Shown here piece by piece: positions 1,783 to 40,013 of a stretch of DNA of 64,000 bases. Source of the stretch: Paenibacillus polymyxa M1 (GTDB lineage Bacteria > Bacillota > Bacilli > Paenibacillales > Paenibacillaceae); assembly GCF_000237325.1 (NCBI RefSeq), contig NC_017542.1, forward strand, positions 5,264,501-5,328,500. Direction: 5' to 3'. A model generated the notes under the pieces. The model was not told the DNA's origin and searched no databases. It saw only the letters and a program-made list of their open reading frames with translations. A program made the position numbers and the translations under genes. Every line of letters begins with the position of its first letter. Position 1 is the first letter of the stretch.

Positions 1783-2943
1783 TTACTCGCTGCGTTTACT
1801 TAAAACCGAGATTTCTACAGGCTCACTTTCATGGCCGTCTGTATCTTTAGCTTTGATCACCAGTCTAACTGTCGCTTTTTGAGTAAGCACACTGATGCTA
1901 AATGTGCCGTCATCTTTGGCTACTGCACTGCCGATAGGCAGATCGTTGGAATAGGCAGTTACTGTGGAACCTGCTTTTGCTGTTCCTGTAATTGTACCTT
2001 CACCATCGTACACATCGTTGACTTTCAGTGCATTCGAAGTAGCATCCGCGTCAGTAGCTGTGTCTGTAGTGTTGTCTGTAGTCGTATCGGTATTTGTAGT
2101 TGTCTCTGTTGTTGTAGAGTTGTCTGTAGTAGTCGCAGACGTGCTATCTGTGCTAGTACTTGTGCTGCTATCTTCTGTTTCAGTTCCAGAAGTAGTCGAC
2201 GTATTACCGTAAGTGGAATCTGTCACGTTACCGTACGTGGAATTCGTTACCGTTCCACCAGGAGTCGTGGTCAGATTATCGACAGAGCTCAGGTTGTAAC
2301 CGGATGCAGCATCCAAAATAGCAACCGCCTCTGCACGAGTCAACGGCTTCAGTGGCTGGAATTTACCATCCGGATATCCGTTGATGATTTTTTGCTCCGC
2401 AGCTGCCGCTACACTTTTCTTCGCCCAAGATCCGATTTTGTCGGAGTCAATGAATTTAGTAACATCTGCTGCGTTACCCGCAGTCAGCCCAATAGCTTTG
2501 CCAATGATCGCAGCTGCTTCCTGACGAGTTACCTTACCATTTGGTTTGAGCTTGTTATCTGCATAGCCGCTTATGTAGCCTGCATTCACGGCACTTGTCA
2601 GTTCGTTGTATGCCCAGTGGGATGCCGGAACATCTGTGAACGTTCTGCTTCCATTACCGTTTACCTTCACACCGCCTGCATACGTTACGTCTGTCACTGC
2701 TGGAAGTTCCTGCGTGAACGTTCCCAAGCTGCGGTTCAGAAGAACGATAAATTCTGCGCGTGTGATCGCCGCATCCGGTTTTACCGCTCCATTCAATTGC
2801 CCTGTAGCTGACCAGCGTTGCACCTGATCTCCTGCCCAATGGCCACTTGTAGTTTGAGGAGCAGCTGCCGCTGCGCTGAATGCGCTAAGAATAAGACCTG
2901 TGCTCAGTACACCTGTAATTGTGTTCCTTAACTTTTTCCCCAT
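1783..2943 (-). CDS. S-layer homology (SLH) domain surface protein
   Basis: A 386-residue secreted protein. A signal peptide (basic start, hydrophobic core, then AAAAAP near residue 28) precedes three SLH domains at about 30-75, 100-155 and 160-213. SLH domains bind pyruvylated secondary cell-wall polymer, so the protein should be held on the cell surface. Residues about 215-305 are a low-complexity Thr/Ser/Asp linker that includes a duplicated STYGN motif. The C-terminus (about 306-383) resembles a bacterial Ig-like domain with the GTITGTAKAGSTV pattern. The start has a GGGAGGA ribosome site about 9 bases upstream. The linker codon bias creates long open frames on the opposite strand, which are artefacts. 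The specific role is unknown. Confidence 0.85.
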   Translation of the reverse strand: MGKKLRNTITGVLSTGLILSAFSAAAAAPQTTSGHWAGDQVQRWSATGQLNGAVKPDAAITRAEFIVLLNRSLGTFTQELPAVTDVTYAGGVKVNGNGSRTFTDVPASHWAYNELTSAVNAGYISGYADNKLKPNGKVTRQEAAAIIGKAIGLTAGNAADVTKFIDSDKIGSWAKKSVAAAAEQKIINGYPDGKFQPLKPLTRAEAVAILDAASGYNLSSVDNLTTTPGGTVTNSTYGNVTDSTYGNTSTTSGTETEDSSTSTSTDSTSATTTDNSTTTETTTNTDTTTDNTTDTATDADATSNALKVNDVYDGEGTITGTAKAGSTVTAYSNDLPIGSAVAKDDGTFSISVLTQKATVRLVIKAKDTDGHESEPVEISVLSKRSE

Positions 2944-3210: not shown

Positions 3211-3999
3211 ATGGCTCTTATTCAATGTCAGTTTTATTCGGAAGTTCTTGGTCTAAGCACATCCATGAATGTTATTCTTCCGCAGGCAACCCGATCACAG
3301 ATTGGAATGGAAGGCAAGCAAGGAATAGGACCACATCCGACACTGTATTTACTGCATGGCCTGTCAGACGATGATTCAACCTGGCTGCGTCGAACCTCCA
3401 TTGAACGCTACGTCGCCTCCATGGGCCTAGCGGTCGTCATGCCTCAGGTACATCGGAGTTTCTATACGAATATGGAGCAAGGAGCAGCTTATTGGACTTT
3501 TATCAGTGAAGAATTGCCAGCTTTGGCACGTTCATTTTTTCCTCTGTCCGACAAGCGTGAAGACAATTTTGTAGCCGGACTTTCTATGGGTGGTTACGGC
3601 GCCTTCAAACTGGCACTTCAGCATCCAGAGCGCTTTGCAGCCGGTGCCAGTCTTTCGGGGGTTATGGATTTACACGCATCACGCACCGATCCTAAGCAAA
3701 GTGCTATGAGTCCAGCGGAATGGCTTAACATTTTCGGGCCAGATGAAATACGCGGAACAGATCACGACTTGCTGGAGCTGCTACAACGTCATGCCACCGC
3801 GGGGACCTCACTCCCCCAACTCTATCAATGCTGCGGTACAGAGGATTTCTTATATAGGGGGAATCAGACTTTTCGTGAAACATGCACCTCTCTTGGAGTT
3901 CCGCTGACCTACGAAGAAGGTCCTGGAGCTCATGAATGGGGATATTGGGACGCTAAAGTCCAGGACGTACTGGCGTGGCTACCGCTTAAAGGACACTAA
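3211..3999 (+). CDS. Alpha/beta-hydrolase esterase (EstA / S-formylglutathione-hydrolase-like)
   Basis: A 262-residue protein of the esterase D / tributyrin esterase family, probably cytoplasmic because no signal peptide is seen. The nucleophile elbow GLSMGG lies at about residues 123-128, with Ser125 the predicted nucleophile. The oxyanion-hole motif LLHGLSDD is near residues 47-54, and a late His is in GAHEWGYWD. The start at 3211 is preferred over an in-frame ATG at 3175: it has AGGAAAAGAGG upstream and gives the family-typical N-terminus [14 protein letters not shown]. The substrate is unknown; short acyl esters are the usual in vitro substrates. Confidence 0.85.
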
Positions 4000-4007
4000 A
4001 ACAGGCA

Positions 4008-4072
4008 AAAAAATCCCCAGGGCCTTTCTCCTCGCACCATGCGAAGGAATTAAGCTCCGGGGATTGTTGTTA
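4008..4072 (-). terminator. Terminator of the glycosylation operon
   Basis: An AATCCCC/GGGGATT outer stem encloses an inner hairpin. Read on the minus strand it is followed by seven T residues. It lies between the convergent esterase gene and the GT-C gene, so it may act both ways. Confidence 0.5.
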
Positions 4073-4078
4073 TGCCCA

Positions 4079-5713
4079 TCAGGGATTTGTCGTTGTCTCC
4101 GTCGATGGAGATTCTTTAGTTAGTGCCTTAGGCAGTACTTTATACAGGCGCCACTCGCCGTTAAACTCACGTTCAAGCTGAACCCATGGGGCACCATGCT
4201 CATATAAATTCGGATATACCATATTAATCTTACTCAGCGGCATGCCTGACATAATCTTAGGTACAAGGATATAGTCCACATGATTCTCCTGCGGATAACT
4301 TAATGCCTTATTGAACGCATAATCACTGGTGATCAGAAAACGTTTGGAATATTGACTGTAGACGATCATTGTGTAGGCTGAAGCTGAATCAGTCATAATG
4401 GTAGACTTCGGCAGATGCTCATCCAGCCAAACGGCAATCTTGCGATCTGATTCCTGTCTCACATAGTTCACATTCCCTGTGCGTGTGAGAAAGCTATTCT
4501 CATCCGGTGCAATATCCGGGCGAGTCAACGCATAGGAGAGTAATCCAGCGGTAAGTAGCAGACTGACGGACACTAGACCAAAGGCCGCCCTCCGCCATCG
4601 TCCCTGAAGCTGGCTCAACTCATAAGGCAACCAGGCTACGGTAATTGGGAATACATACATAAAGTAACGAAACCACCCGTACGAGGATTGTCTCATCATA
4701 AGTAAAAATTGCAAGCCCGGCACAGACAGGAACAATAACAAAATAATCAGGGTTCCCCACCGAAATAAGCGTCCACTCAACAGACGGATGAACAGAATAG
4801 TAAACAATGGTACAGAGTACCAGATGGTTTTGGAAGCAATAAACTTCAAGGCTACCAGTGGATTGGAGAAAATTTCCACAAATTTATCATCATTCAGCAA
4901 CTCTGCCGATTGGGCCGTGTTTGAATACTCTGAATTCAGGAAATAAAAGGCATTCCCCATAATGAGATAGTTAAAGAAAATCCACAACAGCCCGGAAAAG
5001 ACCACAGGAAGCAAAAGAAGTAACCAGGTTGCCTCGACTTTATGCAGCTTTTCCCGCAGGGCCAGCTCGCGTCTACCCAAGTTGCGATGAAGAAATAAGG
5101 TCGCCAAGACTACGCCAACAGCCATTGCCACGCCTAGAGGCACCGCTTCATAACGAGTCCAGAACGCCATGGCAAGCGCTAATCCAGAAACAATCAGACT
5201 TGCCGTCATGCGGTCCTTGAGCCACAGCGCAAATTCAATCACTGTCATCATAATAAAATATATGTATAACGAATCGCTCAGACCGTTGGCACCAAACAGT
5301 AAAATAAACGGATTCAGTGCATACAACAAAGCCAACAGCAAGCTCATCCTAGAGCTAAGCCCTGTTCTGACACCTGCCCGATATAGCAACATTGCGGTCA
5401 AAGCAGAAAAGGTAGCACTCAGAATAACAGCAGCCAATCCATAGGAGGCTAATGCCGGAAAGATTGGATACAGCAATAGAATTACCATTTCCAGAAGACT
5501 GGGTAGTGGATTCCAGATAAATCCGATGGCGCCCAAATGCGGGTCACGGCTGTACAGCACATAAAATGCGTTAGCTACGCGACTGAGCGCATCTGTGTGC
5601 ATATATCCCAGAACATAGCTAAAATAGATGCCCGCAGACAGCTCCAATGCAAGTATAAACACAAACAGACCTATAGCCATCCATCTGCTTGCAGACATTT
5701 TTCGAAAGGACAT
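4079..5713 (-). CDS. GT-C type membrane glycosyltransferase, paralog 2
   Basis: A 544-residue polytopic membrane protein with about ten or more hydrophobic segments. The pattern is that of GT-C (GT39/ArnT/PMT-like) transferases, which use lipid-linked sugars on the outer face of the membrane. The first extracytoplasmic loop has YMHTDALSRV, with the Asp expected for the GT-C catalytic position. A short soluble C-terminal domain follows. It is a close paralog of the neighbour at 5819-7420; both share HTDALSRV, FYVLYSRDPHLGAIGF and LPYELS blocks. It is the last gene of the minus-strand operon, 105 bases after its paralog. The start has GGGGG and AGAGGA upstream; the in-frame ATG at 5698 is an alternative. 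Acceptor and sugar are unknown. Confidence 0.75.
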   Translation of the reverse strand: MSFRKMSASRWMAIGLFVFILALELSAGIYFSYVLGYMHTDALSRVANAFYVLYSRDPHLGAIGFIWNPLPSLLEMVILLLYPIFPALASYGLAAVILSATFSALTAMLLYRAGVRTGLSSRMSLLLALLYALNPFILLFGANGLSDSLYIYFIMMTVIEFALWLKDRMTASLIVSGLALAMAFWTRYEAVPLGVAMAVGVVLATLFLHRNLGRRELALREKLHKVEATWLLLLLPVVFSGLLWIFFNYLIMGNAFYFLNSEYSNTAQSAELLNDDKFVEIFSNPLVALKFIASKTIWYSVPLFTILFIRLLSGRLFRWGTLIILLLFLSVPGLQFLLMMRQSSYGWFRYFMYVFPITVAWLPYELSQLQGRWRRAAFGLVSVSLLLTAGLLSYALTRPDIAPDENSFLTRTGNVNYVRQESDRKIAVWLDEHLPKSTIMTDSASAYTMIVYSQYSKRFLITSDYAFNKALSYPQENHVDYILVPKIMSGMPLSKINMVYPNLYEHGAPWVQLEREFNGEWRLYKVLPKALTKESPSTETTTNP

Positions 5714-5818
5714 TCCTCTCGTTCCCCCTCAAACTTCTTGCGGCGGTGCAGCTGCAGGGAAATTACGCCCGACAGCTGTATCCTTTCCTCCGCTACGATG
5801 CACTAAAATACAATAAAA

Positions 5819-7420
5819 TTATTGCAGTTCTTCATGCTTTATCTTGTACAAACGCCACTCCCCGTCAAAGTCATGCACCAACGAGGCCCATGGCGCCCCC
5901 TTTTCAAACAAATCAGGATAGTTCCGGTTCACCTGATCCAGCGGTACCCCTTCTACCAAGCGCGTAACCAAAACATAATCCACCTTGGAGGCGGGCAGAT
6001 CCGTTAAAGATTTTCCAAAATCATAATCACTCGTGATCATAAACTTCTTCGGAATTTTACTGCTCAAAATGATCGGATAGGCCGTATAAGAATCAGTCAA
6101 AATGAGAGATGAACCATAATGTTCATCCAGCCATGACCCTATTTTCCGTTCAACAATTTGCCGAGTATAGCTTTCATTGCCACTATGCGTCAGATAGCTA
6201 TGCTCATCCGCCGCAATTGCGGGATTCGTCAGTGCGTAGGATAACAAGCCTACTGTTACCAACATTCCTGCCGTTACCAGTGAGATTCCGATCCCCCGCA
6301 TTTTCCCCTTCAACAGACTAAGCTCATACGGCAGCCAAGCAACCGTAATTGGGAATACATACATAAAATATCGGAACCAGCCAAACGAAGAATGCTTAAG
6401 CATAAGTAAAAGCTGAAGCCCGGGTACCGATAAAAAGATAGCCAGCAGCGTTAACGTGCTCCAACTCCACAGACGTTTGTCCAATAGGCGTATAAGCAAA
6501 ATGGCAATTAATGGAGCCGCATACCATAAGGTTCGTTGCCCGACAAACTTTAGCATCAGTACAGGATGAGCAAACATTTCCACAAAGCGTTGATCCTCCA
6601 GCAAAGCCGCTGATTGTGTGGAATTGGAATACTGCGAACGTAAAAAGTAAAGCAGGTCGCCCATGATAATCCAGTTAAAAAAGAGCCACAGTAAACCCGA
6701 AAAGACAAGCGGCAGCAACAATAGAAGCCATGTCGCTTCTACCTTGTACAGGCGCTCTTTTAAAGACAATTGCGTTCTAACGCTCTCTCTGTTTGTACGC
6801 CACCGATGCAGAGAAAAAATCGTCAGTAATACGCCCAAAGCCAGCGCACCCCCCAGGGGAACTGCTTCGTAGCGAACCCAAAATGCCAATGCAAGCGCAA
6901 AACCGGATACGATCAAATTCGCCGCCTTGCGATCCTTAAGCCACATACAGAATCGACTCACTGTCAGCAGGATAAAAAAGATATATGGCGAGTCACTTAA
7001 GCCGTTGAAGCCAAACAGAAACATAAACGGATTCAGTGAAAATAACAGCGCAATCAGCAAACTGGTTGCACCGTGAAGCCCTAGTTCTTTTCCCGTCCCG
7101 TACAATAATGCTGCACTCGCCCCAGCAAACAGGCTGCTCACAATCACTGCTGCCAGCCCATGGGAAGCGAGTGCGGGAAATAAAGGATAGAACAACAGCA
7201 CAATGAGTTCCATCAAACTCGGTAGCGGATTCCAAACAAACCCAATAGCACCCAAATGTGGGTCCCGACTATAGAGTACATAAAATGCATTAGCTACTCG
7301 ACTGAGCGCATCGGTATGCATATAGCCAAGATGCCATGCAAAATAAACACCCACGGCTAATTCTAGAGCAGCAATACAAGCAAACAATGACAACAACTTT
7401 CTATGTTTCCTTACGATCAT
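5819..7420 (-). CDS. GT-C type membrane glycosyltransferase, paralog 1
   Basis: A 533-residue polytopic membrane protein of the same GT-C type as its tandem copy at 4079-5713, with the same first-loop Asp motif (HTDALSRV) and the same closing C-terminal domain. The start at 7420 makes an ATGA overlap with the gtrA stop codon and has AGAGGT upstream. A longer open frame into gtrA exists but lacks a ribosome site. With GtrB-like and GtrA-like proteins just upstream, the expected pathway is: load a sugar on undecaprenyl phosphate, flip it, and transfer it outside the cell by this enzyme. Which polymer or protein is modified is not visible. Confidence 0.75.
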   Translation of the reverse strand: MIVRKHRKLLSLFACIAALELAVGVYFAWHLGYMHTDALSRVANAFYVLYSRDPHLGAIGFVWNPLPSLMELIVLLFYPLFPALASHGLAAVIVSSLFAGASAALLYGTGKELGLHGATSLLIALLFSLNPFMFLFGFNGLSDSPYIFFILLTVSRFCMWLKDRKAANLIVSGFALALAFWVRYEAVPLGGALALGVLLTIFSLHRWRTNRESVRTQLSLKERLYKVEATWLLLLLPLVFSGLLWLFFNWIIMGDLLYFLRSQYSNSTQSAALLEDQRFVEMFAHPVLMLKFVGQRTLWYAAPLIAILLIRLLDKRLWSWSTLTLLAIFLSVPGLQLLLMLKHSSFGWFRYFMYVFPITVAWLPYELSLLKGKMRGIGISLVTAGMLVTVGLLSYALTNPAIAADEHSYLTHSGNESYTRQIVERKIGSWLDEHYGSSLILTDSYTAYPIILSSKIPKKFMITSDYDFGKSLTDLPASKVDYVLVTRLVEGVPLDQVNRNYPDLFEKGAPWASLVHDFDGEWRLYKIKHEELQ

Positions 7421-7836
7421 GAAACCTCTTTCTGACGCTGTTGCGGAACGGAGAAGATCCAATAGCGGTTCCAGATATAATTATGAACTGGCACGATGAT
7501 GGTAGTTAAGACTTCACCGATCAGATATGACCAACCAATCCAGTGAATGGTTACGTACATCAGAGCGGCATTCAGGAGCAAGCCGCAGGTACAGACCAAT
7601 AAATATTTAAGAAACTGAGTGCGGCTCCCTTCGCCGGTAGGCTCGAACGTCCAGTTACGATTCAGCACATACGAAACGAGCAGCGTAACGATAAAACCTA
7701 TGGTAGTAGCCGTTACTGCAGGTATTGCAAACAGCTCCACCAGCAGCACAAGCACACCGACGTGAATGCCTGTACCCAGCAGTCCGACAATACCGTATTT
7801 AATGATTGGATACTTTAGATACGAACGTCTGATCAT
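7417..7836 (-). CDS. gtrA: GtrA family membrane protein (putative polyprenyl-phosphate-sugar flippase)
   Basis: A 139-residue protein with four predicted membrane helices and the GtrA signature: an early IKYGIVG and the VSYVLNRNWTF motif after helix two, with a repeated NYIWNRYWIF near the end. GtrA proteins are thought to flip lipid-linked sugars made by a GtrB-type enzyme. The chosen ATG at 7836 follows GGGAG by about 11 bases and overlaps the end of the upstream GT2 gene by 38 bases. The downstream GT-C gene overlaps its stop by four bases. These overlaps imply tight translational coupling in one operon. Confidence 0.85.
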   Translation of the reverse strand: MIRRSYLKYPIIKYGIVGLLGTGIHVGVLVLLVELFAIPAVTATTIGFIVTLLVSYVLNRNWTFEPTGEGSRTQFLKYLLVCTCGLLLNAALMYVTIHWIGWSYLIGEVLTTIIVPVHNYIWNRYWIFSVPQQRQKEVS

Positions 7837-8806
7837 GTTGATTAAACTCCCTATCCACCCACAATCGGTCAGCATTCGCCCGTTTGTCTGCAATTAGATA
7901 ACGGGGTCTGGCTTTGACTTCGTGATATATGGCGGCAATATATTCTCCTACCACTCCAATCGACAGCATGAGTACACTGCCGATAATCAAAAGCAGTAAA
8001 ATGACAGTGGTAAACCCGGTCACAGCATCACCCGTTATTTTGTGCATTAAGGTTTGAATCCCCAACACGACCGAAATCAGCATGAAAATGAGACCCATTA
8101 AACTCACTACCCGCAAAGGTACCGTCGAGAACGAAACGATCGCTTCCGCGGCCAATCGAAGCAGCCCTAACGGACTCCAGCGGCTTGGACCCTCTTCTCG
8201 TGGAGCCACCCGGAATGTAATCTGGGTTTTACGAAAACCGAGCCAGGCGGTCATCCCGCGAAAAAACGGCATACGCTCTGGCATCGCCATCCAGGCATCC
8301 ACCACTCGTCGATCCAGCAGCTTATAATCGGAGGCATCCTTGAGATTAAAGCCCGTCAAACGATTCAAAGTCGCGTAGAACAAAGAAGCTCCGAGCTTTT
8401 TGCCTACAGACTCTTCTCCCCGAAATTCTTTCACACATTCAACTAAATCATAACCTTCGTTCTGCCATAAACGCACCATTTCCCCGATCATTTCAGGAGG
8501 ATGCTGCAAATCACCGTCCATAACAATGATCGCATCGCCAGAAGCATTTTCCAAACCTGCGCACAATGCCAGCTCCTTACCAAAATTCCGACTCAGCCGG
8601 AGTGCGAGCAAAGAGGGCATACGACGGGACAATTCGGACAGTTTGAGCCACGTATCATCTTTGGAACCATCATCTACAATAATGAGCTCATAACGTGAGG
8701 TGACAACAGACAGCACCCCATCAATCACCTTAAGAGAACGTTCGAGGTGTGAGCCTTCATTGTACATAGGAATGACGACGGATAAAAAAGGGTTTTTTGT
8801 CTCCAT
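7799..8806 (-). CDS. GT2 polyprenyl-phosphate glycosyltransferase (GtrB/DPM1-like)
   Basis: A 335-residue protein. The N-terminal GT2 fold (about residues 1-230) shows VVIPMYNEG, the nucleotide-binding VDDGSKD, and the DGDLQHPP motif that carries the metal-binding DxD equivalent. Two C-terminal membrane helices (about 235-300) are typical of GtrB and YkcC-like enzymes, which move a sugar from a nucleotide donor to undecaprenyl phosphate at the inner face of the membrane. The ATG at 8806 is chosen because AAGGAG precedes it by seven bases; an ATG at 8827 in the same frame has a poor ribosome site. It lies between the MshEN-glycosyltransferase and gtrA. Confidence 0.85.
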   Translation of the reverse strand: METKNPFLSVVIPMYNEGSHLERSLKVIDGVLSVVTSRYELIIVDDGSKDDTWLKLSELSRRMPSLLALRLSRNFGKELALCAGLENASGDAIIVMDGDLQHPPEMIGEMVRLWQNEGYDLVECVKEFRGEESVGKKLGASLFYATLNRLTGFNLKDASDYKLLDRRVVDAWMAMPERMPFFRGMTAWLGFRKTQITFRVAPREEGPSRWSPLGLLRLAAEAIVSFSTVPLRVVSLMGLIFMLISVVLGIQTLMHKITGDAVTGFTTVILLLLIIGSVLMLSIGVVGEYIAAIYHEVKARPRYLIADKRANADRLWVDREFNQHDQTFVSKVSNH

Positions 8807-8829
8807 TCTTGCTCCTTCTTTCTTCATAT

Positions 8830-11289
8830 TCAGGAGGACTGTGCCGGGGCATCATCCAAGTCATGCATATCGGTCAGACCATGCGTCGTTTTCTCCCAAT
8901 AGAACGGCTTGGTTATAAGCTGCCAAGCTGCTTTTATCGCAGCTATACTCATAAGTACCCAATATAACGGCGAGAGTAGCCCATATTTGACCATTGCGTA
9001 TGAAAATGTTCGTTCACCGCGCTCTTCCAGCTCACCGATGACCCAATACATGCCAGCCACATTACTGAATACGAACAGGAAGTTACCGATATAAAATTCC
9101 GCGCTGGCTAGGTAGTACACATAACCCGGGAACAGCTTGGGAATAAAGGACAACTCCCAGCCAAACCATAAAATAAGCAAGCCCCAAAAAATCGGGTTCA
9201 GCAACGGCAACATCGGAGTCGCCAGAATCATTACCTGAAAACCGAAAAAGCCCTTCCAGCCCACTTCGCGCACCAGCTTAACCGGATTACGCATATGAAC
9301 CAGCCATGTCTGCATATATCCCTTGATCCAACGTGAACGCTGACGAATCCAGTTGCCCACGCGGCTGTTCGCTTCCTCCCATGTGCGGGAATCAACAATG
9401 GCCGTTTTGTAACCACCTTTATACAGACGAATGCCCAGATCGGCATCCTCGGTTACATTATAGGGGTCCCACGCATTAATATCTTTCAATACAGATACCC
9501 GAAAATGATTGGACGTACCGCCCAACGGAATAGGGGTATCTAACTGCATAATTCCCGGCAGCAGCAATTCGAACCACATACTGTATTCTTGTGTGAACCA
9601 GCGGGTCAGCAAATTTTGTGTACTGTTAAAATAATTGAGCTTCGCTTGAATACACGCATAATTCTCAGGGAGTGAATCAAACGCTGCAATGACTTTTTTA
9701 AGTTGGTCAGCATCGGGACGATCCTCAGCATCGTAAATGACGACAAACTCGCCGCGGGCGCGAATAAGTCCATAATTACATGCCTTCGGCTTGGTTTTCG
9801 GCAAGCCATCAGGCACGACCAGTGTCGTGTAATAGGCAGGCAGCTTCATTTCACGCAGCAGCTCAATCGTCTCAATGTCGTCCTCTTCAATCAGCAGCCG
9901 TACATCCAGCTTGGACTTTGGATAATCCAGCTGCTCCAAATTCCGCAACAACATCGGAAGCACGCCCGCTTCCTTATACATCGGGACAAGAATCGTATAG
10001 ATCGGCAGTCTTTTTTCATCCATGGCGTCTACCTCTTCCTTCGTGAAGCGAAGCTGCGCCCCACGCCGGGAACCGAGATAGATAATTCCAAATTTGAAAA
10101 GCGTCATCGCAAAATAAAAAAGCTGGATCATCATATTAATGATCAGCACTGTCTTCCAGCTGTTCCAGAAGAGGCCGAGCAATGTGATCATTCCCATGGC
10201 TGCAAACACCCAGAGCTGTCCCTTGGTAAAGGTGGTCCGCGCCGAATTGTGCGGTTCTTTTTCCAACAACCCGGTTGTGCTTTCCTGCATCATTTCCTCG
10301 CCGTAGATTTTACCCCAGAGCTGCTCCATCTCTTCCTTTGTTGCAAGCACTTGCTCTACCGGCATACCCAGAATTTCCTCCAGCTTCAAGCGTCGCTCTT
10401 CTGGTAATGGATCACTGACCGCTACAATATAGCGGTTCATATATTGATGGATGACGACCACGCCATAAGCCATTGCCACTTGCTCGGGTAGCTTGTACGC
10501 CGCATCCAGCGCCAGCTCCTCACCAATACGCCCGATTCGGTTCTGGGTAGCAATCGCGCGGTACAAATCCGCAGGCTCCAGCATTTGCAATGATAGCAAG
10601 ATGTCGCCGAGCAGCCCGCCGCTCTTCGCCTGGAACTCGAGCGCTCGCTCTAGCTGCTCTGGTGTAATATAGCCGGAACGAACCAGCATGTCGCCCAGTC
10701 TCTCCTTGGATTCATCACCGTCAATTTGCTCTTGTAGCTGCTCAGCTGTAATGAAACCCATCTCTACAAGAATATCGCCCAGTCTACCACCGTAACGCTT
10801 CTGGTTGCGGATAGCATCTGTCAGCTGATCCCGGGTAATCATCCCGTTCTCCACCAGCTGATCTCCCAGACGGGCCTTGCCGTTTCGTCCGGTCTGCGTT
10901 CCTGCTGCCGCCTCTCCGCCTTCTGCACCAGGAATACTGGAAGCAAGACCCATGGCTGCTCCTGCCGCTGCCTGTTCCTGTCCAGATGCATACTGGACTT
11001 GCGCCTCCTGCATCTGTCCATCCTGTATTCCTTCATCCAGCAATTGTTCCACAGCTGCTGCTGTATCATTGGCATTCTGTATAGCCTGAATACGAAGTTC
11101 TGTATCCCGAAGTCGTCGTTCCAACTCTTCGATGTGAAAATCAAGCTTGTACAGTATCGGGGCCTGCTCTGCACGCTGAGCCTCTAGCTGTTGTTGCAGT
11201 TGTTCGATTCGCTGACGCTCTTCTTTTATTCTTCTCTTGGTTTGGCGAATTGAAACTCCTCCAACCTGCCACCTAAGCTTGTCACCCAT
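8830..11289 (-). CDS. Processive GT2 glycosyltransferase with tandem MshEN (c-di-GMP-binding type) modules
   Basis: An 819-residue membrane protein. Residues 15-75 form a coiled coil, followed by an Ala/Gly/Gln-rich linker. Four 24-residue MshEN-type motifs follow as two pairs. Motifs 1 and 2 (140-163, 169-192) begin RLGDQLVENG and RLGDILVEMG. Motifs 3 and 4 (197-220, 226-249) begin RLGDMLVRSG and LLGDILLSLQ. Each pair has the five-residue spacer known from MshEN. The rest of a GSPII_E_N fold runs to about 335, then membrane helices (about 355-410), a GT2 catalytic domain with DAED and TEDAD motifs and QRSRW (QxxRW type), and further helices. The layout resembles XagB-like exopolysaccharide synthases. 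Control by c-di-GMP is inferred. The start overlaps the upstream stop by eight bases. Confidence 0.8.
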   Translation of the reverse strand: MGDKLRWQVGGVSIRQTKRRIKEERQRIEQLQQQLEAQRAEQAPILYKLDFHIEELERRLRDTELRIQAIQNANDTAAAVEQLLDEGIQDGQMQEAQVQYASGQEQAAAGAAMGLASSIPGAEGGEAAAGTQTGRNGKARLGDQLVENGMITRDQLTDAIRNQKRYGGRLGDILVEMGFITAEQLQEQIDGDESKERLGDMLVRSGYITPEQLERALEFQAKSGGLLGDILLSLQMLEPADLYRAIATQNRIGRIGEELALDAAYKLPEQVAMAYGVVVIHQYMNRYIVAVSDPLPEERRLKLEEILGMPVEQVLATKEEMEQLWGKIYGEEMMQESTTGLLEKEPHNSARTTFTKGQLWVFAAMGMITLLGLFWNSWKTVLIINMMIQLFYFAMTLFKFGIIYLGSRRGAQLRFTKEEVDAMDEKRLPIYTILVPMYKEAGVLPMLLRNLEQLDYPKSKLDVRLLIEEDDIETIELLREMKLPAYYTTLVVPDGLPKTKPKACNYGLIRARGEFVVIYDAEDRPDADQLKKVIAAFDSLPENYACIQAKLNYFNSTQNLLTRWFTQEYSMWFELLLPGIMQLDTPIPLGGTSNHFRVSVLKDINAWDPYNVTEDADLGIRLYKGGYKTAIVDSRTWEEANSRVGNWIRQRSRWIKGYMQTWLVHMRNPVKLVREVGWKGFFGFQVMILATPMLPLLNPIFWGLLILWFGWELSFIPKLFPGYVYYLASAEFYIGNFLFVFSNVAGMYWVIGELEERGERTFSYAMVKYGLLSPLYWVLMSIAAIKAAWQLITKPFYWEKTTHGLTDMHDLDDAPAQSS

Positions 11290-11533
11290 GAATTCCCGCC
11301 CTTTCAATCCAGCGCCGCTCTTCCGCAAGCGCATCTGCAAGCAGCTGCTTTAACTCGGTATCCCGCTGCTTTTTCCGCTCCAGCGCCGCATGGAAAAGCT
11401 CCCGCTCCTCACGTAGCAACCTCTCTGCCTGGATTCGCTCCTCATGCAATGAGGATACCAATCCATCGGCGTCAGAAGCGCGATAACCGATCCAAGCGCT
11501 CTTTAGCTGACGCGTCGTTCGTTTAGTTCTCAT
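11282..11533 (-). CDS. Small coiled-coil protein heading the glycosylation operon
   Basis: An 83-residue, strongly charged protein with no recognised family. Residues about 28-78 form a continuous Glu/Arg/Leu-rich helix likely to be a coiled coil. No signal peptide or membrane helix is present. The ribosome site AGGGAGG lies five bases before the ATG. Its stop overlaps the start of the MshEN-glycosyltransferase, which itself begins with a coiled coil, so a direct coiled-coil contact between the two is a reasonable guess. It is the first gene of the minus-strand operon. Confidence 0.65.
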   Translation of the reverse strand: MRTKRTTRQLKSAWIGYRASDADGLVSSLHEERIQAERLLREERELFHAALERKKQRDTELKQLLADALAEERRWIERAGIHG

Positions 11534-12048
11534 AATACCTCCCTGGATCGTCCCGACTCTGCCTTTGCTATGTCGCTACTTCAATATTTTTACTGGCTTT
11601 CTTCCAAAACCAGGACACACCTGCTTTCTCATTCAAGCCCTTCATTTACACATTTATGCAATTTCTCTGGTCAAAAAAACCAATAAAAACTTGAAAATGG
11701 TTTATCGCATATGCTTCTTGTTCTATCGAATTGGTAATTCAATGAAAAACTTAGTGCTATTCTACCATAATCCTAGTAGGTGTAGTATACAAAAATGTAA
11801 ATTCTAGAAACTTTCACACTAATGTATAGATAGGTATATAGAACTAGATATTAAACATCTTGGGCGATATTCTTCCAATAAATCTATGTAGTTTATGATT
11901 ATTCTGATCATAAATCATTCAAATACCTCAGAAAACACAAAAGACACCGCGAACGGTGCCTTTGAAAACATAGATGGCAAATATTCTTAAAATCTGATTT
12001 TACACAGCATCCCGTTGCTGTGCAAGAGAATAATTCTTTCTGTATGGA
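11534..12048. other. Intergenic region between argH and the glycosylation operon
   Basis: 515 A/T-rich bases with no credible gene. It holds the argH terminator (11939-11966). A weak sigma-A-like promoter for the glycosylation operon is possible on the minus strand at 11645-11674 (TTGACC, 18 bases, TGTAAA). Nothing else was recognised. Confidence 0.4.
11939..11966 (-). terminator. Rho-independent terminator of the arginine operon
   Basis: On the minus strand AAAGGCACCG, TTCG loop and CGGTGTCTTT form a ten-pair stem with one G-T pair, followed by TTTTGTGTTTT. It lies about 85 bases after the argH stop. Confidence 0.85.
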
Positions 12049-13461
12049 TTATTTTTTTGGCTTATGATTTTCATACCATGTTGACGTGTTCACTAGAAGC
12101 TGTTCACTGCGTCCAATGGCTGCCTGCACCTGACCGGTGGCGGTTCCGCCATACACATTCCGAGCATTGACTACCGCTTCTGGTTGAAGCACCTCATAAA
12201 TGCGCTCGTCGAACAGATCCGAAAACTGCTGGAATTCATCCAGTTTCAAATCAAGCAGATATTTGCCCTGCTGGATGCAATACAGCACCGTTTTGCCGAT
12301 AACCTCATGGGCCTGACGGAACGGAAGCCCCTTGCCGACCAGGAAGTCCGCAATATCCGTTGCGTTGGAGAAATCCTGATTGACCGCTTGACGCATCCGG
12401 TCCTTGTTCACCTTCATCGTGGCGATCATTGGAGCGAACAATTGCAAGGCTCCCTCCAGCGTAGCAACCGTATCGAACATCCCTTCCTTGTCCTCCTGCA
12501 TGTCCTTGTTGTATGCCAGCGGCAAGGACTTCAGTACGGTCAGCAGACCGACGAGGTTTCCATAGACACGCCCGGTTTTGCCACGTACTAGCTCCGGTAC
12601 ATCCGGATTTTTCTTCTGTGGCATAATGCTGCTGCCTGTACAGAAAGCATCATCCAGTTCGACAAAACCAAATTCTGTGCTGCTCCATAGCACCAGTTCT
12701 TCGCTTAGACGGGACAAATGCGTCATAATCAGCGAGGCCCCGGCCAGAAACTCTACGATAAAGTCCCGATCACTGACAGCGTCCAGGCTATTTTCATAGA
12801 CGCCATCAAACCCAAGCTGCTCAGCTACAAAATGACGATCGATCGGGAAAGTGGTTCCAGCCAGAGCGCCAGCGCCCAGCGGCAACACATTGATGCGTTT
12901 GTAGCTGTCCTTGAGTCGGTCAATATCACGCTCCAGCATAGACACATACGCCAGCAAATGATGCGCGAACAAAATAGGCTGCGCACGCTGCAAGTGTGTG
13001 TATCCAGGTACAATTGTGTCCAGATTGTCCTTGGCCTGCCCAATTAATGCAACTTGTACATCATGCAGCATACCCACCAGTGATACGACACGTCCGCGCA
13101 AATACAAGTGCATATCTGTTGCTACCTGATCGTTACGACTGCGTCCAGTGTGCAGCTTACCGCCGACCGGGCCAATGACTTCGATCAGGTTTTTTTCGAT
13201 ATTCATGTGAATATCCTCATCCGAAACGGAAAATTCAATTTCCCCACGGCGGATACGCTCCAGAACGGTGTGCAGTCCTCCCTTGATCGTGTTCGCATCC
13301 TCCTGCGGAATAATACCGCATTTGCCCAGCATGGCCACATGAGCCAAACTGCCTTGAATATCTTCTTCCGCCAACGCCTGATCAAACCCAATAGAAGCCG
13401 TATATTCCTCTACCAGCTTGTTCGTTTGCTTTGTAAACCGTCCGCCCCATAGCTTACTCAT
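12049..13461 (-). CDS. argH: Argininosuccinate lyase
   Basis: A 470-residue cytosolic enzyme that splits argininosuccinate to arginine and fumarate, the last step of arginine synthesis. It starts MSKLWGGRF and carries the superfamily signature [12 protein letters not shown] near residue 280, with HTGRSRNDQ near 100. Length and motifs are typical of the family. The ATG at 13461 has GAGAGGGG about nine bases upstream; a longer in-frame start is not supported. It is the last gene of argCJBDFGH, 87 bases after argG, and is followed by a strong terminator. Confidence 0.97.
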
Positions 13462-39974: not shown

Positions 39975-40013
39975 AACCCGCTTCCCTGTATGCTGAAACA
40001 GGTGAAACGGGTT
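39975..40013 (-). terminator. Terminator of the flaG-fliDST operon
   Basis: AACCCG..CCTGT and ACAGG..CGGGTT form an interrupted stem. On the minus strand it is followed by an A/T-rich tract, 13 bases after the FliT-like gene. Confidence 0.6.

Follow-up and report, generated by a model that had tools for sequence, protein, structure and literature searches.

A putative MshEN-bearing polysaccharide synthase encoded with a three-component glycosylation gene set in Paenibacillus polymyxa

Described relatives and the Paenibacillus polymyxa locus

To our knowledge, few outputs of cyclic di-GMP (c-di-GMP) are known in Gram-positive bacteria. Synthases that join a family 2 glycosyltransferase (GT2) to an MshEN domain are already known, as are three-component systems for polymer decoration and, in Streptococcus, a c-di-GMP module with a Dpm1-GtrA hybrid. 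Here we analyze a locus of Paenibacillus polymyxa M1 (genome, 6.23 Mb) that appears to combine such elements: six minus-strand open reading frames (ORFs) that fill positions 4079 to 11533 of a 64,000-nucleotide stretch, hereafter the window (5,264,501 to 5,328,500 of contig 1, NC_017542.1). The central protein, GT2M, is a GT2 enzyme with MshEN-type motifs, and its neighbors are a GtrB-like glycosyltransferase, a GtrA-type flippase, two GT-C enzymes, and a small coiled-coil protein. Our favored reading, to which we assign a probability of about 0.6, is that c-di-GMP gates GT2M, a processive synthase, and that the Gtr three-component system decorates its product outside the cell, perhaps with mannose.

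Escherichia coli NfrB is a c-di-GMP-activated exopolysaccharide synthase for which both c-di-GMP binding and activation are reported, and like GT2M it fuses a GT2 domain with DxD/TED/QxxRW-type motifs to MshEN (PMC8669469; this and the other published systems are compared from part of each account). The two differ in layout, since MshEN is C-terminal in NfrB but N-terminal and doubled in GT2M, which is also accompanied by GtrB, GtrA, and GT-C genes. NfrB has an outer-membrane partner, NfrA, and a proposed donor, UDP-N-acetylmannosamine (UDP-ManNAc), and its homologues are described as rare in Gram-positive bacteria, with Eggerthella named (PMC8669469). The Streptococcus module comprises a diguanylate cyclase, a Dpm1-GtrA hybrid, a cellulose-synthase-like protein, and a 16-transmembrane protein (PMC10333796). 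Like our locus, it joins a GT2 synthase with a GtrB-GtrA-type protein and a large membrane protein in a c-di-GMP context, and fused GtrB-GtrA proteins also occur in relatives of GT2M; compared by description only, it differs in having its own diguanylate cyclase and, in the part of the account available, no mention of MshEN.

Multicomponent transmembrane glycosylation systems such as CsbB-GtcA-YfhO (PMC8035078) likewise join a GT-A loader, a GtrA-type flippase, and a GT-C transferase, several of them with PMT_2, but the present set is tied to a processive-type synthase with a predicted c-di-GMP-type sensor. Bacillus subtilis YdaJ-N provides a Gram-positive case of the c-di-GMP-dependent exopolysaccharide that we predict here, but its receptor is a separate degenerate GGDEF protein, YdaK, and the available part of that account names no Gtr or GT-C partner (PMC5422440). 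Lactobacillus johnsonii needs a comparable bactoprenol glycosyltransferase and flippase for its exopolysaccharide, a homopolysaccharide; unlike what we predict for the GT2M cluster, this GtrA-GtrB system has no reported link to c-di-GMP in the portion of the paper available (PMC7117936). XagB, from the xagABCD cluster of Xanthomonas, is a GT2 synthase behind biofilm polysaccharide (PMC3609779). We use "XagB-like" as a working label, not derived from comparison with Xanthomonas XagB itself, for 31 distant control proteins with 40 to 48% identity to GT2M; one metagenome relative is labeled "glycosyltransferase XagB" by its source. Unlike GT2M, these proteins have no recognizable first MshEN motif pair, and their loci mostly lack Gtr and GT-C genes.

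Literature searches, with most subscription papers outside their reach, returned only these named relatives and no published account of the whole combination; a preliminary description of the locus from its sequence had not recognized the exact set as a described system. What we did not find in print is a double MshEN region at the N terminus combined with GT-C and Gtr genes, with a small partner protein that shares its head with the synthase, and, among relatives, with a manC-like gene.

Composition and recurrence of the gene set

All six ORFs lie where the preliminary description had placed them, and Pfam matches bear out the GT2, MshEN, GtrB-like, GtrA, and GT-C types it had named. The small coiled-coil protein (11282 to 11533, 83 residues) has a helix behind a G-Y head that is DivIVA-like but diverged, with AGGGAGG, resembling a ribosome binding site, upstream of its ATG. 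Next come GT2M (8830 to 11289), a GtrB/DPM1-like polyprenyl-phosphate glycosyltransferase (7799 to 8827, 342 residues; Pfam Glycos_transf_2, E = 3.6e-27; best NCBIfam model PgfS, 250.5 bits, under its cutoff of 500), and a GtrA flippase-type protein (7417 to 7836; PF04138, 101 bits; GtrA_DPMS_TM, E = 5.9e-29). GT-C enzyme 1 (5819 to 7420; PMT_2, 37.2 bits) and GT-C enzyme 2 (4079 to 5713; PMT_2) complete the operon; their PMT_2 matches are above cutoff (E = 4.3e-9 and 1.8e-7), and a PMT-type GT-C fold is predicted. The polyprenyl-phosphate GT-A enzyme, GtrA-type flippase, and GT-C enzyme of a three-component glycosylation system are encoded here together.

The genes are closely packed. GT2M most likely starts at ATG 11289, overlapping the small-gene stop as ATGGGTGA, and this start (819 residues) replaces the earlier choice of TTG 11340. 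GtrB begins 2 bases past the GT2M stop, and GtrA begins within the end of GtrB, probably at ATG 7836 (its ORF is open also from TTG 7893). GT-C 1 probably starts at ATG 7420 in an ATGA overlap with GtrA (open also from TTG 7462), and a gap of ∼105 bases separates it from GT-C 2.

We surveyed 99 genomes, including our own, for synthases with at least 65% identity over at least 670 residues; 11 of the 60 from the same genus have one, as do 3 of the remaining 39. GT2M is 97% identical to a P. polymyxa protein and 92 to 98% identical to its counterparts in P. ottowii, P. brasilensis, P. farraposensis, and P. terrae; 64 plasmid records match part of it, none with 80% coverage. Ten same-genus loci share a uniform order (small gene, synthase, GtrB, GtrA, GT-C), and a second GT-C is present in 7 of 11 same-genus loci when the window is counted. 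The same gene types are found in two distinct arrangements at three loci from two other families, where a manC-like gene immediately precedes each set, and ORF lists together with a hidden Markov model (HMM) search place the small gene in two of the three.

A wider test set of 39 loci combined these three with 36 from a scan of named genomes that kept the best 80 of 569 matches and is not a random sample; it omits the window's own group, other near-duplicates, and the fragmentary loci L086 and L096, and Bacillota status is uncertain for one member (L107). Counting neighbors within 5 kb on the same strand, GT-C genes accompany the synthase in 36 of the 39 loci, GtrB in 29, GtrA in 26, the manC-like gene in 25, the small gene in 17, and GT-C, GtrB, and GtrA together in 24. 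The corresponding counts at the 31 XagB-like control loci are 1, 0, 0, 2, 0, and 0; the 17 controls with both flanks give GT-C 1, GtrB 0, GtrA 0, and manC-like 2. The gene set is no chance neighborhood, and the survey of co-occurrence, a check proposed with the preliminary description, shows it to recur. GtrB and GtrA are fused into one gene in seven loci, two of which Pfam confirms (L067, L073). In P. macquariensis (L049, 2919 to 13359), a block of manC-like gene, small gene, synthase, and GtrB stands twice in tandem.

Of 35 loci, 12 encode BcsB-type proteins close to the synthase, eight of them downstream, among Clostridium-type and some Paenibacillaceae loci (L053, L060, L061, L066 on the other strand, L068, L073, L075, L077, L079, L080, L090, and L107). 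PF03170 confirms six of them (L053, L061, L066, L068, L073, and L079), and a genome-wide search found BcsB in 9 of 27 genomes and not in the other 18, which include our own. Such neighbors of MshEN synthases may represent BcsA/BcsB-like pairs in Gram-positive bacteria.

Use of GDP-mannose is suggested by the presence of a manC-like gene near 25 of the 39 related synthases, the PMT-type GT-C fold, and three homologues of the manC-like gene elsewhere in the P. polymyxa M1 genome (36 to 42% identity). One manC-like protein matched three entries in the PDB, all named as mannose-pathway sugar-phosphate enzymes, the best being mannose-1-phosphate guanylyltransferase (5e-28). GDP-mannose may be used by either GtrB or the synthase.

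Gene neighborhood also bears on the best placed of the alternatives, which we nevertheless consider unlikely, namely, that the operon does two separate jobs: the synthase would make a c-di-GMP-controlled polymer, and GtrB, GtrA, and GT-C would decorate a secondary cell-wall polymer, teichoic acid, or S-layer proteins. Known Gram-positive systems of such composition modify lipoteichoic acid, wall teichoic acid, and wall polysaccharides (PMC8035078), and a protein with SLH and Big_6 domains, a possible glycosylation target, is encoded just downstream in the window (1783 to 2943, minus strand) and kept in the ten same-genus loci compared. On the other side, the 36 relatives with GT-C close to the synthase include Clostridium, Sporolactobacillus, and Desulfosporosinus, the SLH query is unmatched in the three loci of other families (L042 to L044), and the operon genes overlap or abut.

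MshEN motifs, glycosyltransferase core, and shared head

MshEN consists of two 24-residue motifs with a 5-residue spacer, in which Arg, Gly, Leu, and Gln residues bind c-di-GMP or shape the site (Wang et al. 2016, PMC5013675). An HMM search, also among the checks proposed at the outset, matches GT2M to Pfam MshEN (PF05157; 34.7 bits, cutoff 23.1), to NCBIfam NF053729 (cyclic di-GMP-binding domain-containing protein, MshE-related; 125 bits over two stretches, cutoff 38), and to Pfam GT2 families beside them. With residues numbered from the ATG, pair 1 (140 to 192; 10714 to 10872, minus strand) comprises motif 1 (140 to 163), a spacer (164 to 168), and motif 2 (169 to 192), and pair 2 (197 to 249; 10543 to 10701, minus strand) comprises motif 3 (197 to 220), a spacer (221 to 225), and motif 4 (226 to 249). 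These are the four motifs, two pairs, and five-residue spacers of the preliminary description. Each pair scores ∼73 bits against the 38-bit cutoff, pair 1 covering profile positions 1 to 48 of 53. A C-terminal MshEN subdomain follows at residues 253 to 335 (10285 to 10533, minus strand; Pfam MshEN profile positions 20 to 88 and the AlphaFold2 model).

Spacing is right in both pairs. Pair 1 has canonical Arg, Gly, and Gln residues except that motif 2 ends in Asp192 in place of Gln, a change that had been overlooked. Pair 2 is short of the Arg and turn Gly of motif 4 (Leu226 and Gln235), a loss already noticed, and keeps Gln249; position 21, canonically Leu, is Ile in motifs 1, 2, and 4 (residues 160, 189, and 246). 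We compared 23 of 33 Paenibacillaceae rows (family in the NCBI sense), after removing 10 near-duplicates, with 18 other homologues. In all 23, the motif 4 Arg is replaced (by Met, Leu, Val, or Ile), as is the Gly (by Arg, Gln, Lys, or His), and Leu-2, Gly-3, Leu-17, and Gln-24 of the same motif are unchanged. Because the 18 non-Paenibacillaceae homologues retain motif 4 Arg/Lys in 11 cases and Gly in 10, the altered motif 4 is, as judged from sequence, a fixed trait of the Paenibacillaceae lineage. The Gln of motif 2 survives in 9 of the 23 Paenibacillaceae; motifs 1 and 3 have theirs in all 23, and their Arg is present in 22 and 20, respectively. Distant homologues have at most a counterpart of pair 2, often degenerate, with pair 1 missing or unrecognizable. 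Clostridium-type synthases (L068, L069, L073, L075 to L077, L079, L080, L082, and L090) show by eye extra RLG-like motifs before pair 1, and MshEN pairs appear to expand modularly in them.

These substitutions leave some room for a second alternative, less probable again than two separate jobs, in which the MshEN region is a structural or docking element that no longer senses c-di-GMP and the synthase is constitutive or otherwise controlled. Motif 4 lacks Arg and Gly throughout the Paenibacillaceae compared and motif 2 lacks Gln in 14 of 23, and RiGT2, a synthase from a Gram-positive bacterium, depends on a PilZ domain but, in the part of the account available, shows no c-di-GMP binding (PMC10374906). 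Against loss of sensing stand the conserved Arg and Gln residues of motifs 1 and 3 and the scores of both pairs, together with a genome that holds 11 GGDEF matches (one of them interrupted by a stop and located at the end of a contig) and few recognized receptors: one PilZ protein and, as the sole protein with an MshE-type motif found by profile search, GT2M itself.

GT2M begins with a coiled coil (residues 14 to 114; 10948 to 11250, minus strand; AlphaFold2 helices at 14 to 85 and 90 to 114) and ends in a membrane-embedded GT2 domain (residues 356 to 806; 8872 to 10224, minus strand) delimited by motifs, the AlphaFold2 model, and fold comparison. The model has a mean predicted local distance difference test (pLDDT) score of 88.0 and a predicted template modeling (pTM) score of 0.79. 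The motifs DD (470 to 471), DAED (520 to 523), TED (613 to 615), and QRSRW (650 to 654) agree with a processive GT2, the second being DAED instead of DxD, and residues 376 to 816 have a predicted BcsA/hyaluronan-synthase fold including the transmembrane region. That GT2M instead adds single sugars, as a GDP-mannose-dependent lipid glycosyltransferase would, is quite improbable given its QxxRW motif, this fold, and the BcsB neighbors of its relatives.

Alignment of the small protein with its relatives shows a G-Y head and a helix in common. Only one Pfam family, DivIVA, recurs widely among them, with hits in 10 of 15 members at E ≤ 0.1 (best, 8.8e-6); the families that come next have hits in 2 of 15. 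In hhalign comparisons with 11 DivIVA/GpsB proteins, taken from 13 DivIVA loci with our genome's own DivIVA among the two left out, 20 small proteins without P. polymyxa-group copies reached 87% (score 35.5) and 30 with those copies reached 77% (32.0), and column shuffles reached at most 17.4 in 60 tries. The small-protein head alone gave 69%, and the coil alone gave 21%. A profile search of the PDB ranked DivIVA 2wuj fourth (E = 0.14), with phage gp5.9 ahead (E = 0.014). The head of the synthase N terminus matches the small-protein head at 93%; direct likeness of the synthase N terminus to DivIVA is rejected at 3% over a 95-residue segment and 12% for the head alone, and the DivIVA link therefore runs via the small protein only. 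We read these alignments as pointing to a head common to the small protein and the synthase N terminus that is DivIVA-like in the small protein, and we guess that it has a placing or clustering role, for which the B. subtilis YdaK, YdaM, and YdaN foci, mostly at septa and poles, offer a precedent (PMC5422440).

Mechanism, history, and meaning

If GT2M is a gated synthase with external decoration of its product, a rise in c-di-GMP would lead to MshEN binding and opening of the synthase active site. The GT2 domain, BcsA-like in its predicted fold, would polymerize a sugar from a nucleotide-sugar donor, and the chain would exit through the enzyme's own membrane channel. GtrB would place a sugar, most likely mannose from GDP-mannose, on undecaprenyl phosphate and GtrA would flip it, steps for which the gene set is present; one or both GT-C enzymes, again of predicted fold, would then move the sugar onto the emerging polymer at the outer face. 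In the weakest step, the DivIVA-like small protein might pair with the like-built synthase N terminus and cluster or place the synthase at the membrane. A more ambitious version, doubtful at present, is a Bacillota-wide machine in which a c-di-GMP-gated BcsA-type synthase carries a dual MshEN (a diverged, always-present pair and an added pair), GT-C enzymes fed by GtrB and GtrA mannosylate the exiting chain, and the DivIVA-like protein and synthase head restrict the entire machine to membrane that is curved or septal, with polymer deposited at one place on the cell.

Several findings weigh against the gated-synthase reading. Neither MshEN pair is fully canonical, and the relaxed motif of 2016 (PMC5013675, from part of the account) is missed twice by motif 4 and once by motif 2. 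GT2M reaches 58 bits of the 1,170-bit cutoff of the NCBIfam NfrB equivalog, none of the genome's GGDEF matches lies inside the window as a local diguanylate cyclase, and a BcsB partner has 0 matches in the genome. BcsB is dispensable in some synthases of the BcsA fold, such as hyaluronan synthase. The operon itself contains no manC-like gene, and for the proteins of six relatives GMP_PMI is the best NCBIfam model at 140 to 293 bits, under its cutoff of 373, which is why we label them manC-like. Because GtrB was not found near the synthase in 10 of 39 relatives or GtrA in 13, decoration in those loci may rely on genes encoded elsewhere or may not be needed. Most control loci come from other phyla, and less than 5 kb is available on one side in 14 of 31 controls compared to 6 of 39 test loci, so the contrast between the sets could be partly taxonomic or a product of cut contigs. 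As for DivIVA, the window's own small protein has no match to PF05103 at E = 0.1, two relatives miss its 28-bit cutoff (20.4 and 21.0 bits), and shuffles of 7-column blocks reach 34.2 in 40 tries, barely below the real score, indicating that the signal sits in short stretches such as the head. The original proposal that both synthesis and decoration are under c-di-GMP is partly supported.

In a GT-C tree of 54 rows, with near-duplicates dropped, both GT-C enzymes of the P. polymyxa group fall into a single clade (support, 99/99) inside a poorly resolved Paenibacillaceae GT-C group; by its sequences the twin is a lineage-specific duplication, with GT-C 2 the conserved copy and GT-C 1, by inspection, later lost in at least two lineages. 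Desulforamulus and Desulfosporosinus have separate tandem GT-C pairs in the same tree. We also surveyed the esterase-argH junction (window positions 3999 to 12049) in eleven genomes and compared ten, omitting G001, where argH is at a contig end. In these ten same-genus genomes without the synthase, esterase and argH are adjacent in six (five gaps of <0.3 kb and one of 2.2 kb with an unrelated gene), three hold an insert of ∼11.5 kb (L163, L167, and L168), and one has no esterase match in the stretch compared. Judged by eye, the insert of L163 and L168 appears to carry purine/allantoin degradation genes. At the same junction, L165 (10146 to 11243) has a 365-residue gene that by eye resembles an HD-GYP-type phosphodiesterase. 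The operon site is variable, since the junction holds little or ∼11.5 kb of other DNA in relatives without the operon, and acquisition by the P. polymyxa group seems a better explanation than repeated loss. That unrelated glycosyltransferase genes came together by chance, for which the synthase's presence in only 11 of 60 same-genus genomes searched might speak, can be dismissed as contradicted by recurrence with altered gene order in other genera and classes.

The operon ends in an intrinsic-terminator-like hairpin followed by a T run (4000 to 4066, minus strand, read 4066 to 4000; −29.8 kcal/mol, z = −3.5, with 0 of 200 shuffles as good). Terminator-like sites number 15 in the region compared to 10.0 expected, including a hairpin between argH and the operon (11940 to 11963, minus strand), and sigma-70-like sites are at chance level (17 compared to 15.2 expected). 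The window contains no c-di-GMP riboswitch or other Rfam RNA at gathering threshold and no tRNA. GC content, mostly 0.43 to 0.52 before, falls to 0.34 to 0.42 across window positions 40001 to 62000 (∼22 kb), which suggests acquired DNA.

If our reading is correct, the only MshEN candidate receptor of this genome is tied to a recurrent synthesis-plus-decoration set, one that (as GT2, GT-C, GtrB/GtrA, manC-like gene, and sometimes BcsB) spans the Paenibacillaceae, Sporolactobacillaceae, and clostridial lineages. It would become testable whether a three-component system can decorate a nascent synthase-made chain, and it could be asked why the number of MshEN pairs in relatives ranges from one to two or more, with motif 4 fixed in a noncanonical form. 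The locus may also be relevant to exopolysaccharide engineering in P. polymyxa, where work has addressed the pep clusters (PMC7911366, from part of the account).

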